Below are positions 36,862-43,882 of a stretch of DNA of 64,000 bases, in pieces (within the stretch, counting starts at the first letter, position 1; each line of letters begins with the position of its first letter). The DNA lies in NCBI RefSeq assembly GCF_028745735.1, contig NZ_JAQZSM010000002.1:124001-188000 (forward strand). Direction: 5' to 3'. The position numbers and the translations under genes are program-made. The notes beneath the pieces are model-generated. The model had not been told where the DNA came from. It was given only the letters and a program-made list of their open reading frames with translations, and ran no database searches. Origin of the DNA: Roseinatronobacter alkalisoli (GTDB taxonomy: Bacteria > Pseudomonadota > Alphaproteobacteria > Rhodobacterales > Rhodobacteraceae).

Positions 36862-38214
36862 TTATTTCGGGTCCAGCGTGCTTGCCAGAAATTTTTCCAG
36901 CCAATGGATGTTATACGCGCCCGTCAGCACGTCTTCCTGTTCCAGCAATGCGCGGAACAGCGGCACTGAACTGTCAACACCATCGATGATAAGTTCGCCC
37001 AAAGCACGGTTCAGCCGCGCCAGTGCTTCTGGCCGGTCACGGCCATGCACGATCAGTTTTGCAATCAGGCTGTCGTAATAGGGCGGGATTGAATAGCCCG
37101 AATAGAGCGCCGAATCCATCCGCACACCCAGCCCGCCGGGCGCATGATAGGTGTTCACCCGACCGGGACAGGGCGTGAAATTCGGCAGCTTTTCAGCATT
37201 GATGCGCACTTCGATCGCATGACCCAGAACCTTCAGGTCATCCTGCGAAAAGGACAAATCAGCCCCCGCAGCAACGCGAATCTGTTCGCGCACCAGGTCG
37301 ACACCGAAAATTGCCTCGGTCACCGGGTGTTCGACCTGCAGGCGGGTATTCATTTCGATGAAATAGAATTCATCATTTTCATACAGGAATTCAATTGTCC
37401 CTGCGCCGCGATATCCGATGCGGGCCACCGCTTCGGCGCAGGTCTGGCCGATACGGGCGCGGGTTTCGGCGTCAATGGCGGGGCTGGGGGCTTCTTCCAG
37501 AACCTTCTGGTGGCGGCGTTGCAGTGAACAGTCACGTTCGCCCAGATGCACGGCATTTCCCTTGCCATCGCCGAAAACCTGCACTTCGATATGGCGTGGG
37601 GTGCTCAGGTATTTTTCGATATAGACTTCGTCATTACCGAAAGCGGCCTTTGCTTCGGACCGGGCGGTGCGGAAAGCACTTTCCAGCTCTGATGCGTTGA
37701 GGGCCTGTTTCATGCCACGCCCGCCGCCGCCTGCCGTTGCCTTGATGATGACGGGATATCCGATTTCGGCTGCGACGGTCTTTGCAGTTTCAAAATCCTT
37801 CACACCGCCATCGGACCCCGGAACACAGGGCACACCAAGTGCCTTCATGGTTTCCTTGGCGGTGATCTTGTCGCCCATCATGCGGATATGTTCGGCAGAG
37901 GGGCCGATGAAGGTGATGTCGTGATCTTCGACCACCTGCACGAAAGCTGCGTTTTCCGACAGAAACCCATAGCCGGGGTGAATTGCTTCTGCGCCGGAAA
38001 TTTCACAGGCGGAAATGATGGCGGGCACAGACAGATAGCTTTGGCCGGATGGGGGTGGGCCGATGCAGATGGCTTCATCTGCCATGCGCACATGCATTGC
38101 ATCGGAATCCGCGGTGGAATGCACTGCAACGGATGCGATACCCATTTCACGACAGGCCCGGATGACGCGCAGCGCGATTTCACCGCGATTTGCAATGAGG
38201 ATCTTCTGAAACAT
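36862..38214 (-). CDS. accC: Acetyl-CoA carboxylase, biotin carboxylase subunit
   Basis: ATP-grasp enzyme that carboxylates the biotin on AccB, the first half-reaction of malonyl-CoA synthesis. The 450-residue chain shows [21 protein letters not shown], the glycine-rich ATP lid [35 protein letters not shown], the catalytic [14 protein letters not shown], and [11 protein letters not shown]. All are intact. The start at 38214 is 10 nt past the accB stop, so the two are cotranscribed and coupled. No aroQ lies upstream, unlike in many bacteria. Confidence 0.97.
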
Positions 38215-38224
38215 CACATGTGCC

Positions 38225-38719
38225 TTATTCAATGATCATCAGCGGCGCGCCGAATTCGACCGGGCTGCCATCTGCGACCACGATGCGCTTGACGATACCT
38301 GCGCGCGGGGCGGGAATATGGTTCATGGTTTTCATCGCCTCGATGATCAGCAGCGTGTCGCCTTCGTTGACCTGATCACCGATATTGACGAAATTCGCGC
38401 TTCCGGGTTCGGGGGCCAGATAGGCGGTGCCGACCATCGGGCTGGTAACCGCGCCGGGTTGCTGGGCAGGGTCGGCGTTTGCGGGCGCTTCGGCTGCGGC
38501 GGGCGCTTGCGGCATGGCGGCAGGTGCGGCCATCTGCTGGTATTGCGGAGCAGGGGCGGCAACGAATTGCTGCGCCGTCATCTTGGAAACGCGCACATTC
38601 AGGCTGTCATTTTCGCCATATTCGCGCTTGACGCTGAGTTCGGACAATTCATTGTCGTTCAGAAGTTCCGCAAGGGCTTTGATAAAGGCGACATCGGCGT
38701 CATTGCGGGTCTGATTCAT
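38225..38719 (-). CDS. accB: Biotin carboxyl carrier protein of acetyl-CoA carboxylase
   Basis: Carries CO2 as carboxybiotin between AccC and the carboxyltransferase AccAD. The 164-residue protein has an N-terminal helical domain, an Ala/Pro/Gln linker (residues 52-90) and the biotinyl domain with the attachment motif EAMK (Lys130, in [14 protein letters not shown]). [23 protein letters not shown] is the characteristic thumb region. It is the first gene of accB-accC. The 203-bp region to the divergent HTH regulator has room for promoters of both. Confidence 0.96.
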
Positions 38720-38884: not shown

Positions 38885-38922
38885 TGTAAAGTTTTGTAAA
38901 CTGCGCCAGCGGGGAGTGTAAA
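38885..38922 (+). promoter_or_regulatory. Three phased TGTAAA hexamers upstream of the HTH regulator
   Basis: TGTAAA occurs at 38885-38890, 38895-38900 and 38917-38922, start-to-start distances 10 and 22, close to one and two helical turns. The first two form AAAGTTTTGTAAA, which matches ten of thirteen positions of the corynebacterial RamB motif. The last copy touches the TTG start and overlaps the space after the GGGGAG Shine-Dalgarno. A likely autoregulatory site, by inference. Confidence 0.5.
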
Positions 38923-40251
38923 TTGTCGAAATCCAGTCTGACCGGAACTCGTATTCGTGCAAGGCGCAACCTGCGCGGGTTGCGCCAGTCCGATCTGGCG
39001 CAAATGGTGGGCGTATCACCGTCCTATATGAACCTTATCGAACACAACCGCCGCAAGGTCAGCGCACCCTTGTTGCAGGCGGTGGCGCAGGCACTTGGCG
39101 TGTCCGAGGACGCGCTGGTGCAGGATGGCGATATCCGCTTTGTCGAAGGGGCGCGCGCGGCGGCTTTGCGTACCGATGCAAATCTGGCTGATCTGGAGCG
39201 TGTGGATGAATTTGCAGGGCGGTTTCCGGGCTGGGCGAAAGTGCTGGCCGATACACAGGCGCGCGTGGAACGTCTGGAACGCGTGGTCGAGCATTTAAGC
39301 GACCGCATGACCCATGACCCATATCTGGGGGCCGCGCTGCATGAAATCATTTCTGCGGTAACATCTGTGCAGTCAACAGCCGCAATCCTTAACGACAGCG
39401 ACGATATTGCGCCGGAATGGCAAGCCCGTTTTCACGAAAACATCCTGAATGATTCCAAACGTCTGGCTGAAGGGGCTGTGGCGCTGGTCAATTACCTTGA
39501 TACGGCGGATGACACTGAAAGCGGTCTTGCTGCGCCCCAGGAAGAAGTTGAAGCATGGCTTGCGCGCATGGGGTTTCATTACCCCGCGCTTGAAACCATG
39601 CCGCTTGCGGATTTGTCGCGTCTGGTGGAAGGGCAGGTTGAACTGTCATCAGATGCATCCCGTGTACTGGCGTTGCAATGGCTGGTGCGGTTGCAGGAAG
39701 ATACGCGCGCGCTGCCGCTTGACCCGTTCGTTGATGCCATGATGGAACTTGGCGCTGCCCCTGATCAGTTGGCGCAGCATTTCGGGGTGCCCTTGCCGCA
39801 GGTGCTGCGGCGTCTGGCGATGCTGCCTGCTGATGATGATCGCCTGACGGCCCATGCCATGCCCGGTCTGGTGGTCTGCGACGGGTCCGGTACGTTGGTT
39901 CTGCGCCGCGCCGTTGACGGATTTCCGATGCCGCGCTTCGGGGGCGGGTGTCCGCTGTGGCCGCTTTATCAGGCGCTGCACTGCCCCGGACGGCCCCTGC
40001 GCGTTACGCTGCTTACCGATGGCCGGATGGGGCGGCGTTTCACGGCCTATGCGATCTGCGCGCCGGAGATGGCACCGGGTTTCGACATACCGCCTGTCAT
40101 GCAGTCCACGATGCTGGTTGTCCCCGACAGCGGCCCGACGAACCTGCCTGCGGGGCAGCAGCCATTGGTGGTCGGTGGCAGTTGCCGGACCTGCGCCCAA
40201 CAGGACTGTCCGGCACGGCGCGAGCCGTCCATTCTGGTGACATTCGCATAG
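38923..40251 (+). CDS. HTH (XRE) regulator with central DHp-like segment and C-terminal DUF2083-type cysteine tail
   Basis: A 442-residue DNA-binding protein. Residues 8-60 are an XRE helix-turn-helix (LRQSDLAQMVGVSPSYMNLIEHNRR). The C-terminal half resembles the short-chain acyl-CoA regulator (ScfR/RamB) domain DUF2083, including a late Cys motif (Cys421, Cys424, Cys429). The ImmA/IrrE HEXXH metalloprotease-like domain usual between them is absent. Instead residues 132-192 look like histidine-kinase DHp helices: LHEIISAVTSVQ keeps the His-Glu (His140), followed by a second helix with FHENILNDSKRLAEG. The start is TTG at 38923 with GGGGAG six bases before; no ATG is nearby. It leads a cluster with a response regulator and a transporter-linked kinase, 195 bp upstream of the former. 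Probably controls acetate/short-chain fatty acid genes. Confidence 0.85.
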   Translation: MSKSSLTGTRIRARRNLRGLRQSDLAQMVGVSPSYMNLIEHNRRKVSAPLLQAVAQALGVSEDALVQDGDIRFVEGARAAALRTDANLADLERVDEFAGRFPGWAKVLADTQARVERLERVVEHLSDRMTHDPYLGAALHEIISAVTSVQSTAAILNDSDDIAPEWQARFHENILNDSKRLAEGAVALVNYLDTADDTESGLAAPQEEVEAWLARMGFHYPALETMPLADLSRLVEGQVELSSDASRVLALQWLVRLQEDTRALPLDPFVDAMMELGAAPDQLAQHFGVPLPQVLRRLAMLPADDDRLTAHAMPGLVVCDGSGTLVLRRAVDGFPMPRFGGGCPLWPLYQALHCPGRPLRVTLLTDGRMGRRFTAYAICAPEMAPGFDIPPVMQSTMLVVPDSGPTNLPAGQQPLVVGGSCRTCAQQDCPARREPSILVTFA

Positions 40252-40446: not shown

Positions 40447-40815
40447 TTGGATAAGCGCGTTCTGGTTATAGAAGACGAACCCAATATTTCGGAAGCGATA
40501 CGCTTTATCCTGACGCGAGATGGCTGGCATGTGGATGTCACAGCCGACGGCGTCGCGGCGGTTGGCGCCTTACAGACCAATCCCCCTGACGTGCTGATAC
40601 TGGACCTTATGCTGCCGGGGTTCAGCGGGTTTGACATTCTGAAGACATTGCGCGCGAACCCGGCCACACAGGCGATGCCCGTTCTGATGCTGACCGCAAA
40701 AGGGCAGGCCGCTGACCGCGAAGAAGCAGAGCGGCTGGGGGTTACCCGGTTCATGACCAAGCCCTTTGCCAATGCAGAAGTGGTGGCAGCCGTTCAGGAA
40801 ATGACAGGGACATGA
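40447..40815 (+). CDS. Receiver-only response regulator
   Basis: A 122-residue single-domain CheY-like protein without an output domain. The acidic pocket is Glu9-Asp10-Glu11 (VIEDEPNISEA), the phospho-acceptor Asp53 lies in LILDLMLPGFSGFD, the switch Thr82 in LMLTAKGQ, and Lys104 in FMTKPFANAE. It would pass or receive phosphate rather than bind DNA. The start is TTG at 40447 with GGAGG nine bases before. The stop overlaps the next gene (ATGA), and the SSS-kinase follows. The 195 bp between the HTH gene and this one hold no convincing ORF. A phosphotransfer link to the HTH protein is suggested by context. Confidence 0.92.
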   Translation: MDKRVLVIEDEPNISEAIRFILTRDGWHVDVTADGVAAVGALQTNPPDVLILDLMLPGFSGFDILKTLRANPATQAMPVLMLTAKGQAADREEAERLGVTRFMTKPFANAEVVAAVQEMTGT

Positions 40816-41144
40816 AACTGCCATCCCGCAATACGCAATTTCTGGCCCGCGACAGTTACCGCATGCGCCGGTTGATGGATGCCGCGCGCATTTTGCCGGT
40901 TCTGGGACTGATCTTGCTGGTACTGCCGTTGATGCGGCTGGATTCCGGGGCAGAAAGCCCGCCCACCGCAGCAGAAGCGGTGTATCTGTTTCTGGTGTGG
41001 ATCGGGTTGATATTGGCGGCGTTTGTCATGTCCCTCTGGTTGCGGCGTAGTCTGGGCCCGCCGCGTCCGCTGGTTACGCCGGTTTCCGGGCGTCAGGGCA
41101 TGGCAGCGCCCAGTATGCCCCCTGTCGCGCCCAAGGACGACTAA
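40812..41144 (+). CDS. Small two-helix membrane protein in the sensor-kinase operon
   Basis: A 110-residue inner-membrane protein. There is a basic N-terminus (RDSYRMRRLMDAARI), helix 1 (LPVLGLILLVLPLMRL), a short periplasmic loop (DSGAESPPTAAEA), helix 2 (VYLFLVWIGLILAAFVMSLWL) and a basic/proline-rich tail. I recognise no named family. It resembles small accessory subunits of sodium:solute symporters (DUF485/DUF4212-like) in size and topology, but the match is not diagnostic. It starts inside the response-regulator stop codon and ends two bases before the kinase ATG, so it is made in step with both. A role as partner of the symporter half of the kinase is an inference. Confidence 0.75.
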   Translation: MKLPSRNTQFLARDSYRMRRLMDAARILPVLGLILLVLPLMRLDSGAESPPTAAEAVYLFLVWIGLILAAFVMSLWLRRSLGPPRPLVTPVSGRQGMAAPSMPPVAPKDD

Positions 41145-41146
41145 GG

Positions 41147-43882
41147 ATGTCGTTCAATCTGCTTGTCCTGACCTGCATCGCTTATGTGATATTGCTGTTC
41201 TTCGTGGCATCCGCGGCCGAACGCAGTGCGCAGCAGGGGCGGGCGAAATGGCTGCGTTCGCCACTGGTCTATACATTGTCGCTGTCGGTCTATTGCACGG
41301 CCTGGACCTTTTACGGCGCGGTTGGGTATGCCGCGCGTTCCGGTCTGGAATTCATGACCATCTATCTGGGGCCGACGCTGGTTTTCGTGGGCTGGTGGGT
41401 GTTGCTGCGCAAACTTGTCCGCATTGGACGGGAACATCGTGTCACGTCCATTGCGGACCTGATTTCGGCGCGCTATGGCAAATCGAACCTGCTGGGCGTG
41501 ATAGTCACACTGCTATGCGTGGCGGCGGGAACGCCTTATATTGCGCTTCAGCTGCAGTCCATTGCGCTTTCATTCACGGTTTTCGTTTCAGATCCCGGAC
41601 GGGTGCCGCTGGCTGCGGACAAGAACATTATTGCCTTCTGGGTGGCGGCGGGTCTGACCTTTTTTACCATCGCATTCGGCACCCGCAATCTGGACGCGAA
41701 TGAACAGCATCACGGTGTGGTCACGGCCATCGCAGTAGAAGCGGTCGTCAAGCTGATCGCGCTGATTGCGGTGGGCATTTTCGTCGTGTGGTTTGTGGCA
41801 AGCGGGCCAAGCGACATTCTGGCCCGGATCGACGCGCAGGCCCTGCCGGAATGGACCATTCAGCCGGGGCGCTGGACCGGCCTTATTCTGTTGTCGGCCA
41901 TTGCGATCATTTGTCTGCCGCGCATGTTTCAGGTGACTGTTGTCGAAAATATCGATGACAAGCATCTTGCCACGGCCAGCTGGGCTTTTCCGCTGTATCT
42001 GTTCCTGATTTCGCTGTTTGTCCTACCCATTGCCGTTATCGGTATGGAACTGATGCCGGAAGGCGCCAATCCAGACATGTTCGTTCTGACACTGCCCTTG
42101 CATCTGGGGCAGGACGGGTTGGCGCTGCTGTCTTTTCTCGGGGGGTTTTCGGCGGCAACATCCATGGTGATTGTGGCGTCGCTGGCATTGGCGACAATGG
42201 TGTCCAATCATATTGTGGTGCCGCTCTGGCTGAAACTGCGCGCGGCGCGGAACCTTGACAGCGGCAATATGCGCCTGCTGGTTCTGAGTGTGCGGCGCTT
42301 GTCGATCAGTCTGATCCTGGCGCTGGGCTATATCTATTACATCATTTCCGGCGGGTCAGAGGCCCTGGCAGCCATTGGTCTTGTGGCCTTTGTGGGCGTA
42401 GCGCAGGCATTGCCCGCGCTGATGGGTGCATTGTTCTGGCGCGGGGCCAGTCGCAATGGCGCGGCGCTTGGACTAAGTATCGGCGCGTGTCTGTGGTTCT
42501 ATTCGCTGTTTCTGCCCAGTTTCGGCCCCGATGTCATGATATCGGCGCAGGTTCTGGAACACGGGCTTTGGGGGCAGTCATGGTTGCGGCCCTACAGTCT
42601 GTTTGGCCTGACGACGCTGGACCCGTTATTGCATGCGCTGTTCTGGTCGCTGTTGCTGAACACGCTTGCGTTCTGTCTTGGTTCGCTACTCAGCTTTCCC
42701 AGCCCGATCGAACGGGTGCAAGGCGCGCTGTTCGTGAATATCTTTGACCGGCCCGGCCCCACGCGAAGCTGGACAAACCCTGTCGCCCAGGCCGAAGATC
42801 TGTTGCCCATGGCGCAGCGCATTCTTGGTGCCAGCGAAGGGCAGGCATTTTTCCGCGCGCAGGCCGAATTGCAGGGAAAATCCGGTTTTCTGCCTGATAT
42901 CACACCGGAATTCCTGCAGGGGCTGGAACTGAAAATGTCCGGCTCGGTCGGGGCCGCTACGGCGCATGCGATGATTTCGCAGACTGTCGGCACCGCCGTT
43001 GTCTCAGTCGAGGATCTGATGGCGGTGGCGTCGGAAACCGCGCAGATCATTGAATATTCCAGCCAGCTTGAAGCCAAGTCCGAAGAACTGACCCGCACCG
43101 CCCGCAAGCTGCGTGATGCCAATGAAAAACTGCGCACCCTGTCGGACCAGAAGGATGCCTTCCTCAGTCAGATCAGTCATGAATTGCGCACGCCCATGAC
43201 ATCGATCCGGGCATTTTCCGAAATCATGATGGATGCGGGTGACATGAGCGTGCAGGAGCAGGCACATTTCGCCCGTATCATTCATGACGAATCCATCCGC
43301 CTGACACGGTTGCTTGATGATCTGCTGGACCTGAGTGTGCTGGAACACGGGCAGGTGTCGCTGGATATCCGCGCGGTCAACCTGCGCGACCTGATCGACA
43401 AGGCCATTTCTGCGTCGAAATCCGTGCAGGCCCAGCGTAATTTCCGCATTCTGCGTAGCCGTGACCCGGAAGACGTGGAAATTGTGACGGATTCCGGCCG
43501 CCTGACGCAGGTTTTCATCAATATCCTGTCGAATGCGCGCAAGTATTGTGACGCGACGGATCCGCAGATGAAGATCATCGTGCGCCAGCGCAAAACCATG
43601 CTGGAAGTGGATTTCATTGATAACGGTTCGGGTATTCCGCGCGACAAGCAGGCGCTGATATTCGAAAAATTCTCGCGACTGACAGATTCGCTTCAGGCGG
43701 GCGGAGCGGGGCTTGGACTGGCCATCTGCCGCGAAATCATGAACAATCTTGGCGGTGATATCGACTATGTGCCGGGGCAGGGTGGGGCCGCATTCCGGGT
43801 CAGCCTGCCACTGGTTCTGGAACGCAAACCGATGGCGGCACAGCCGCCTGCGGCCCTGGCCCGTGCAGAAGATGCGGATTAG
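41147..43882 (+). CDS. Sodium:solute symporter-linked sensor histidine kinase (SSS-STAC-HisKA-HATPase)
   Basis: A 911-residue membrane kinase of the CbrA type. Residues 1 to about 530 are a sodium:solute symporter domain with some 13 helices (TAWTFYGAVGYAARSGLEFM; VTSIADLISARYGKS; FSAATSMVIVASLALATM). Residues about 550-625 match the STAC linker (LLPMAQRILGASEGQAFF). A coiled coil follows (EAKSEELTRTARKLRDANEKL), then HisKA with phospho-acceptor His678 (SHELRTPMTSI), N-box ILSNARKYC, G1 DNGSGIP, F-box FEKFSR and G2 GGAGLGLAIC. No PAS domain is visible. It is probably a transporter-like sensor of a small carboxylate or amino acid. It is the last gene of the cassette, followed by 189 bp and the convergent pepN. 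Confidence 0.93.
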   Translation: MSFNLLVLTCIAYVILLFFVASAAERSAQQGRAKWLRSPLVYTLSLSVYCTAWTFYGAVGYAARSGLEFMTIYLGPTLVFVGWWVLLRKLVRIGREHRVTSIADLISARYGKSNLLGVIVTLLCVAAGTPYIALQLQSIALSFTVFVSDPGRVPLAADKNIIAFWVAAGLTFFTIAFGTRNLDANEQHHGVVTAIAVEAVVKLIALIAVGIFVVWFVASGPSDILARIDAQALPEWTIQPGRWTGLILLSAIAIICLPRMFQVTVVENIDDKHLATASWAFPLYLFLISLFVLPIAVIGMELMPEGANPDMFVLTLPLHLGQDGLALLSFLGGFSAATSMVIVASLALATMVSNHIVVPLWLKLRAARNLDSGNMRLLVLSVRRLSISLILALGYIYYIISGGSEALAAIGLVAFVGVAQALPALMGALFWRGASRNGAALGLSIGACLWFYSLFLPSFGPDVMISAQVLEHGLWGQSWLRPYSLFGLTTLDPLLHALFWSLLLNTLAFCLGSLLSFPSPIERVQGALFVNIFDRPGPTRSWTNPVAQAEDLLPMAQRILGASEGQAFFRAQAELQGKSGFLPDITPEFLQGLELKMSGSVGAATAHAMISQTVGTAVVSVEDLMAVASETAQIIEYSSQLEAKSEELTRTARKLRDANEKLRTLSDQKDAFLSQISHELRTPMTSIRAFSEIMMDAGDMSVQEQAHFARIIHDESIRLTRLLDDLLDLSVLEHGQVSLDIRAVNLRDLIDKAISASKSVQAQRNFRILRSRDPEDVEIVTDSGRLTQVFINILSNARKYCDATDPQMKIIVRQRKTMLEVDFIDNGSGIPRDKQALIFEKFSRLTDSLQAGGAGLGLAICREIMNNLGGDIDYVPGQGGAAFRVSLPLVLERKPMAAQPPAALARAEDAD

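Follow-up and report, generated by a model that had tools for sequence, protein, structure and literature searches.

The window analysed here, a 64,000-nucleotide stretch of DNA from Roseinatronobacter alkalisoli, carries on its forward strand a gene for an XRE/ScfR-type regulator (38923..40251, +), which encodes 442 aa from a TTG start; orthologues align with the product from residue 1-5 on. It is followed by genes for a receiver-only response regulator of 122 aa (40447..40815, +; Pfam Response_reg E 2.4e-27), with phospho-acceptor Asp53 at 40603-40605; for a small membrane protein of 110 aa in a CbrX-like position (40812..41144, +), which overlaps the response regulator gene and has two hydrophobic stretches by eye; and for an SLC5-type sensor kinase of 911 aa (41147..43882, +), in which Pfam recognises HisKA (43151-43351) and HATPase_c domains and the codon of His678 lies at 43178-43180. 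In the available text of PMC13022988, cbrX precedes cbrA in Pseudomonas, and the product of 40812-41144 is similar to CbrX in size class and place. Residues 3-460 of the kinase match PDB entry 10ed ('histidine kinase', 606 aa; E 4.4e-71), which we infer to be the CbrA SLC5-STAC structure of that paper. Asp10, Asp53 and Lys105 of the response regulator are present in 109/109 aligned sequences, an alignment that excludes, among distant genomes, frames above 340 aa.

At 36862-38719 (-) lie genes which we take, from their sequence, to encode two parts of acetyl-CoA carboxylase, its biotin carboxylase and its biotin carrier protein. They diverge from the regulator gene, with a 203-bp upstream region common to both, and the same neighbours recur in many close relatives. 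A candidate operator upstream of the regulator start codon consists of a tandem TGTAAA repeat with a 10-bp step, TGTAAAgtttTGTAAA (38885..38900, +), and a third TGTAAA (38917-38922) stands directly before the TTG start. The hexamer occurs in 66 of 78 orthologue upstream regions, against 24 for the best 6-mer in simple shuffles; the 10-bp pair, with one mismatch permitted in one copy, occurs in 20 of the 78, and the exact pair is found a single time in the 4.8-Mb genome.

The regulator begins with a Cro/C1-type HTH domain (residues 8-64; 38944..39114, +; Pfam HTH_3 E 2.3e-12, match 11-64). A predicted helix leads from there into a segment resembling the dimerisation and phosphotransfer (DHp) hairpin of histidine kinases (residues 112-131; 39256..39315, +; helix 102-131 in the AF2 model, the coiled coil being a reading of the sequence). 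Helix 1 of the hairpin (residues 132-157; 39316..39393, +), assigned from alignment, model and profiles, contains His140 (codon 39340-39342); helix 2 (residues 164-193; 39412..39501, +) is assigned from the model and the family alignment. A reduced helical part, equivalent to the IrrE-like/DIII region (residues 204-300; 39532..39822, +), has no M78 match, its assignment resting on the likeness of the full-length model to MtPrpR and on the presence of M78 in distant orthologues. The protein ends with a GAF-like and C-terminal ScfR part (residues 313-438; 39859..40236, +; Pfam ScfRs E 8.2e-11, match 316-437). HTH and ScfRs both exceed their Pfam cut-offs, which is the architecture of the ScfR family. 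No HATPase domain, as would follow a DHp in a kinase, was detected in the window regulator at E up to 10, nor in 19 scanned orthologues at the thresholds used.

In structure comparison, MtPrpR (6cyy, 6cz6) was a match for the full-length model at E ~1e-8. According to the available text of PMC6765138, MtPrpR binds acyl-CoA and a [4Fe4S] cluster, whose ligands are a C-x2-C-x4-C motif and one cysteine of the GAF domain. Cys343, Cys421, Cys424 and Cys429 of the regulator, constant in 57/57 sequences, reproduce this ligand pattern. By analogy the regulator probably senses fuel molecules, and the divergent biotin carboxylase and carrier genes are possible targets of such an acyl-CoA-sensing protein.

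The initial annotation had pointed out that the segment at 39316-39498 (residues 132-192) aligns without a gap to residues 670-730 of the linked kinase. This alignment was reproduced, with 17 identities in 61 positions and His140 opposite His678. BLASTP of the whole regulator against the whole kinase paired residues 89-181 with 629-719 (22/93 identical, two gap positions) at E 7e-6, a value that applies to a single comparison and to a stretch that is partly predicted coiled coil. Over all diagonals, the top ungapped window of 61 residues scored 66, against a maximum of 40 among 60 shuffles. A profile of 86 orthologues compared by HHalign with the 21 HisKA domains of the same genome gave P 3.9e-4 with His on His, at an HHalign probability of only 35%. 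A smaller orthologue profile scored 20.3 against 17.8 for the best of 100 column-permuted controls, a weak control because permuting also removes the helical periodicity. In HMMER searches with the segment profile, the linked kinase was clearly the best among 24 HisKA loci of the genome (32.6 bits, E 1.7e-8 for 5000 sequences; runner-up 11.2 bits).

The window regulator itself is not reached by the Pfam HisKA model (PF00512; curated cut-off 26.9 bits), and the segment is absent from the 24 places found by the HisKA search of the genome; searching PDB sequences with the segment profile returned nothing relevant. Among the 19 scanned orthologues, however, four exceed the HisKA cut-off (L237, L244, L245 and L246; 31.9 to 38.7 bits), with HisKA below the cut-off in seven of the remaining 15 and unlisted in eight. 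The NCBIfam CreC model touches the window regulator at residues 116-183 (E 9.7e-4). Chance similarity is ruled out by the shuffles, the profile ranking within the genome and the HisKA matches in orthologues. Judged from the sequences, residues 132-193 are a DHp module of HisKA type, which shares its ancestry with the partner kinase's DHp and lacks an ATP-binding domain.

It had also been claimed that the usual ImmA/IrrE-like domain is absent from the place of the segment, which holds in part. The domain is indeed reduced in the window's own family, where a Pfam scan gave no recognisable M78 match in the window regulator or in two divergent members; the DHp, however, precedes the domain, and M78 lies above its cut-off, after the DHp position, in 17/17 scanned orthologues from outside the family. 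The four orthologues that pass the HisKA cut-off carry HTH, HisKA, M78 and ScfRs in this order, so the DHp is an insertion between the HTH and the IrrE-like domain, which the own family has reduced, and no replacement of that domain. Since HisKA and M78 are each above cut-off in the same four proteins, the segment is also not a decayed HExxH helix of an ImmA/IrrE domain, and we rejected that reading.

Structure prediction with AF2 for residues 92-205 gave helices at 102-131, 133-157 and 164-200 (mean pLDDT 79, pTM 0.50). The last two form the helical hairpin expected of a DHp, with His140 in the first of them and pLDDT of ~80-90, and the full-length model (pLDDT 88) agrees with that of the segment. 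In a Foldseek search with the segment, kinases came out on top, and LvrB, HK853, SrrB and DivL were within the first eleven matches. This is supportive only, because the E-values ran from 0.11 for the best match to 0.5 for the listed kinases, with DivL at 0.51, and none was below 0.001.

Of 292 genomes sampled from the order, 283 have the regulator. In the class sample of 385 genomes, 44 contain a frame of regulator length (418-599 aa) that the DHp profile matches with E no higher than 1.2e-5; five of the 44 belong to the window's own family, and 42 were read. Matches outside the class, in a phylum sample of 398 genomes, were frames of ~900-980 aa and eight frames of 478-553 aa. Six of these eight, together with three frames from inside the class, are by eye ordinary-looking kinases with an H-box, and no XRE-DHp protein was seen outside the class in the 398 genomes, among the six of eight regulator-length frames read. 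The ordinary-looking kinases of other classes that match the segment profile (L270-L275) have the H-box HExKSPLAAIRGAAELL.

Conservation was read in 86 own-family sequences, part of more than 280 matching genomes, which comprise the window, the 56 best-scoring loci and 29 sequences from genomes chosen mainly for low scores; identity of the regulator to the window protein goes down to ~32%. His140 is His in 86/86, and Ile155, Leu156, Phe170 and Leu181 are likewise constant (each 86/86), while position 141 varies, with Glu in 69 sequences, Asp in four and another residue in 13. A count of 81/81 for His140 in loci of named organisms was discounted as circular, because one of the two scan patterns included this residue. 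Mean conservation of helix 1 (0.621) is similar to that of the HTH (0.617) and higher than that of the GAF-like region (0.473). The long helix and hairpin of the model would also be expected if the module were a leftover dimerisation hairpin from a fusion, devoid of any signalling part. The HTH-like conservation of helix 1, the persistence of His and of the receiver-facing positions described below, and the co-occurrence of regulator and kinase make such a relic very improbable.

Outside the family, His140 is kept in 23 of 28 distant genomes with an XRE-DHp protein. Phe takes its place in three genomes of one genus (G585, G363, G661) and Gln in two of another (G543, G439). Nine further distant genomes all keep His (9/9), giving 32/37 overall; two more with matches (G386, G489) stand outside this count. 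A compact cluster, with regulator, response regulator and kinase within ~5 kb, is present in 20 of the 28 genomes, and His is kept in 20/20 of these. In the other eight the cluster is broken or spread; they include all five Phe or Gln genomes, and three keep His. The association of His loss with cluster break is only suggestive, because two lineages amount to two events. His140 is thus conserved wherever the cluster is kept among the orthologues read, and together with the predicted hairpin this leaves the initial annotation unrefuted on both of the conditions it had named; a phosphorylatable His is nevertheless not universal, since natural Phe and Gln forms exist in two lineages.

Of 70 named loci with at least 4 kb of downstream sequence, 66 have both the response regulator and the kinase after the regulator. 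Of the four exceptions, L114 has the kinase without a detected response regulator, and L130, L131 and L137 have neither; these four genomes, and that of L111, whose contig was too short, all possess the kinase (5/5). Among 38 own-family genomes selected because their regulator score was low or missing, all 29 that bear the regulator have the kinase. Six of the nine regulator-less ones lack it at E 1e-120, and two have a kinase of 41-42% identity. Genome G177 (L256) keeps a kinase of 62% identity, the response regulator and the small membrane protein, with no regulator match at E 1e-20. At L158 (G064), the regulator gene is split across two frames, either by pseudogene formation or by assembly error, and the kinase of this genome is intact. 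In distant genomes with XRE-DHp, the kinase is present in 28/28, including the five with Phe or Gln.

The residues around His140 differ from those of the partner in a characteristic way. In kinases, Glu after His is the catalytic base and Pro kinks the helix for autophosphorylation; known DHp phosphotransferases keep an acidic residue at this place. The partner-type kinases of the same loci have all three of Glu, Arg and Pro in 31/31, whereas among 35 regulators (28 distant, seven own-family) Glu+1 is kept in 6, Arg+3 in 4 and Pro+5 in none. By contrast, the same 35 regulators retain His in 30, Thr/Ser/Asn+4 in 35, Arg+10 in 30, Ser+11 in 32 and Ile+15 in 35. Positions +8, +11 and +15 correspond to residues 268, 271 and 275 of HK853, which by the PDB titles were altered to rewire the choice of receiver. 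This decay of Glu, Arg and Pro with persistence of the receiver-facing positions fits a DHp that departed from a kinase and still meets a receiver.

Two further readings bear on these positions. The module might pair with the DHp of the kinase and so tether the transcription factor at the membrane until the kinase is activated; DHp domains dimerise, and the nearest relative in the genome is the DHp of the linked kinase. The positions kept, however, include receiver-facing ones beyond those of the core alone, and we regard tethering as highly unlikely. Alternatively, the module could act on the receiver, removing or buffering its phosphate, which would give the regulator feedback control over the kinase pathway. 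Thr/Ser/Asn+4, the position of the HisKA phosphatase residue, is kept in 35/35. Such feedback is nonetheless improbable: outside the own family the phosphatase motif has mostly lost its acidic residue at +1, and in the window no output domain is attached to the receiver, which makes the transcription factor the natural output.

The preferred explanation is that the DHp receives the signal of the receiver. A CbrA-like kinase, as its family suggests, would respond to an external solute and autophosphorylate on His678, and the phosphate would pass to Asp53 of the bare receiver. The phosphorylated receiver would then dock on the DHp of the regulator through the surface with which it faces the kinase, as the retained residues indicate. 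Transfer to His140 in most lineages, the present one included, would follow as the least certain step. DNA binding would finally shift, in combination with what the C-terminal part senses of acyl-CoA and of the [4Fe4S] state, if the regulator behaves like MtPrpR. Docking is favoured because the receiver-facing residues are retained and the kinase co-occurs, and we consider it likely that the first three steps take place together and that the receiver docks on this DHp, by whichever route. Phosphotransfer to His140 in addition is plausible, at about even odds: it is favoured because intact clusters leave few residues invariant and His is one of them, and disfavoured because of the natural Phe and Gln forms and the frequent loss of the acidic +1 residue.

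It is possible, though we would not expect it, that docking is all that occurs, the DHp reading the phosphorylation of the response regulator in the manner of DivL, with His140 in contact and unphosphorylated. The Phe and Gln forms and the loss of Glu+1 and Pro+5 agree with this, and DivL, itself among the Foldseek matches (E 0.51), binds DivK~P via a docking surface for response regulators and has Tyr at the His position, according to the available text of PMC4211667. Against it, His is invariant in 86/86 own-family sequences and 20/20 distant compact clusters while the next residue varies freely. The preferred explanation has its own difficulties: five of 28 distant genomes have Phe or Gln and still the kinase, G177 has response regulator and kinase with the regulator missing, the window regulator falls under Pfam HisKA detection, and the E-values of the structure matches are not significant. 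There is good support for the basic proposal of the initial annotation, in which an XRE regulator encoded next to a receiver-only response regulator contains a DHp-like segment with a conserved His. That this DHp serves as the receiver-docking input of an ScfR-type transcription factor is likely from sequence comparison; the whole chain, with the step to His140 included, stands at about even odds. A relay from His of the SLC5 kinase through Asp of the receiver to His140 of the XRE/ScfR regulator, ending on a phosphohistidine of a transcription factor and combined with acyl-CoA and iron-sulphur sensing, we put forward tentatively, at a little under even chances.

The regulator resembles the ScfR regulators (MtPrpR/MccR, RamB, PccR) in its HTH, its ScfRs C-terminal domain, the four-cysteine MtPrpR pattern and the model match, but differs from them in the DHp between HTH and effector part, in the missing recognisable M78 of the own family and in the linkage to a kinase and a bare receiver. 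In DivL-DivK of Caulobacter, too, a DHp reads a single-domain receiver, as far as the accessible text of PMC4211667 goes; DivL, however, is kinase-like over its whole length and has Tyr in place of His, whereas here the DHp stands alone in a putative DNA-binding protein and keeps His. The small membrane protein gene just upstream of an SLC5-type kinase gene recalls CbrX-CbrA/CbrB, and CrbS/R likewise has an SLC5-type kinase, as described in the material available; CbrB, however, unites receiver, AAA+ and HTH in one chain, whereas here the receiver is separate and DNA binding falls to the XRE protein. XrpA is a different XRE protein of 120 aa, judging from the available part of PMC11999139, and was rejected as the same protein. 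In the accessible open-licence literature, no paper was found that describes an XRE or ScfR regulator with a DHp. What comes nearest is Pden_1785 of Paracoccus denitrificans, possibly the orthologue of the window regulator, which the accessible text of PMC10370305 presents as a protein of the ScfR network whose gene clusters with a two-component system.

The DHp-type phosphotransferases ChpT and Spo0B still have an ATPase-like domain in degenerate form and are not known to bind DNA. The window regulator shares with them a DHp hairpin with His, the lack of an active kinase and a (here putative) receiver partner, but it has no ATPase-like domain and is predicted to bind DNA via its HTH. The design is the inverse of the usual one, in which a receiver is fused to the DNA-binding part: here the transcription factor bears the docking domain of a kinase. 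The evidence suggests that the regulator is under the control of the kinase's messenger protein, which would bind, and perhaps phosphorylate, this copy of the kinase DHp. Receiver-only response regulators frequently lack a known output, and the DHp of the regulator would offer a concrete route. If this is true, a sensor of external solutes and a regulator responding to internal acyl-CoA would be joined in one protein; if the relay is true as well, the output of a two-component system would run through a kinase-type DHp on a DNA-binding protein.
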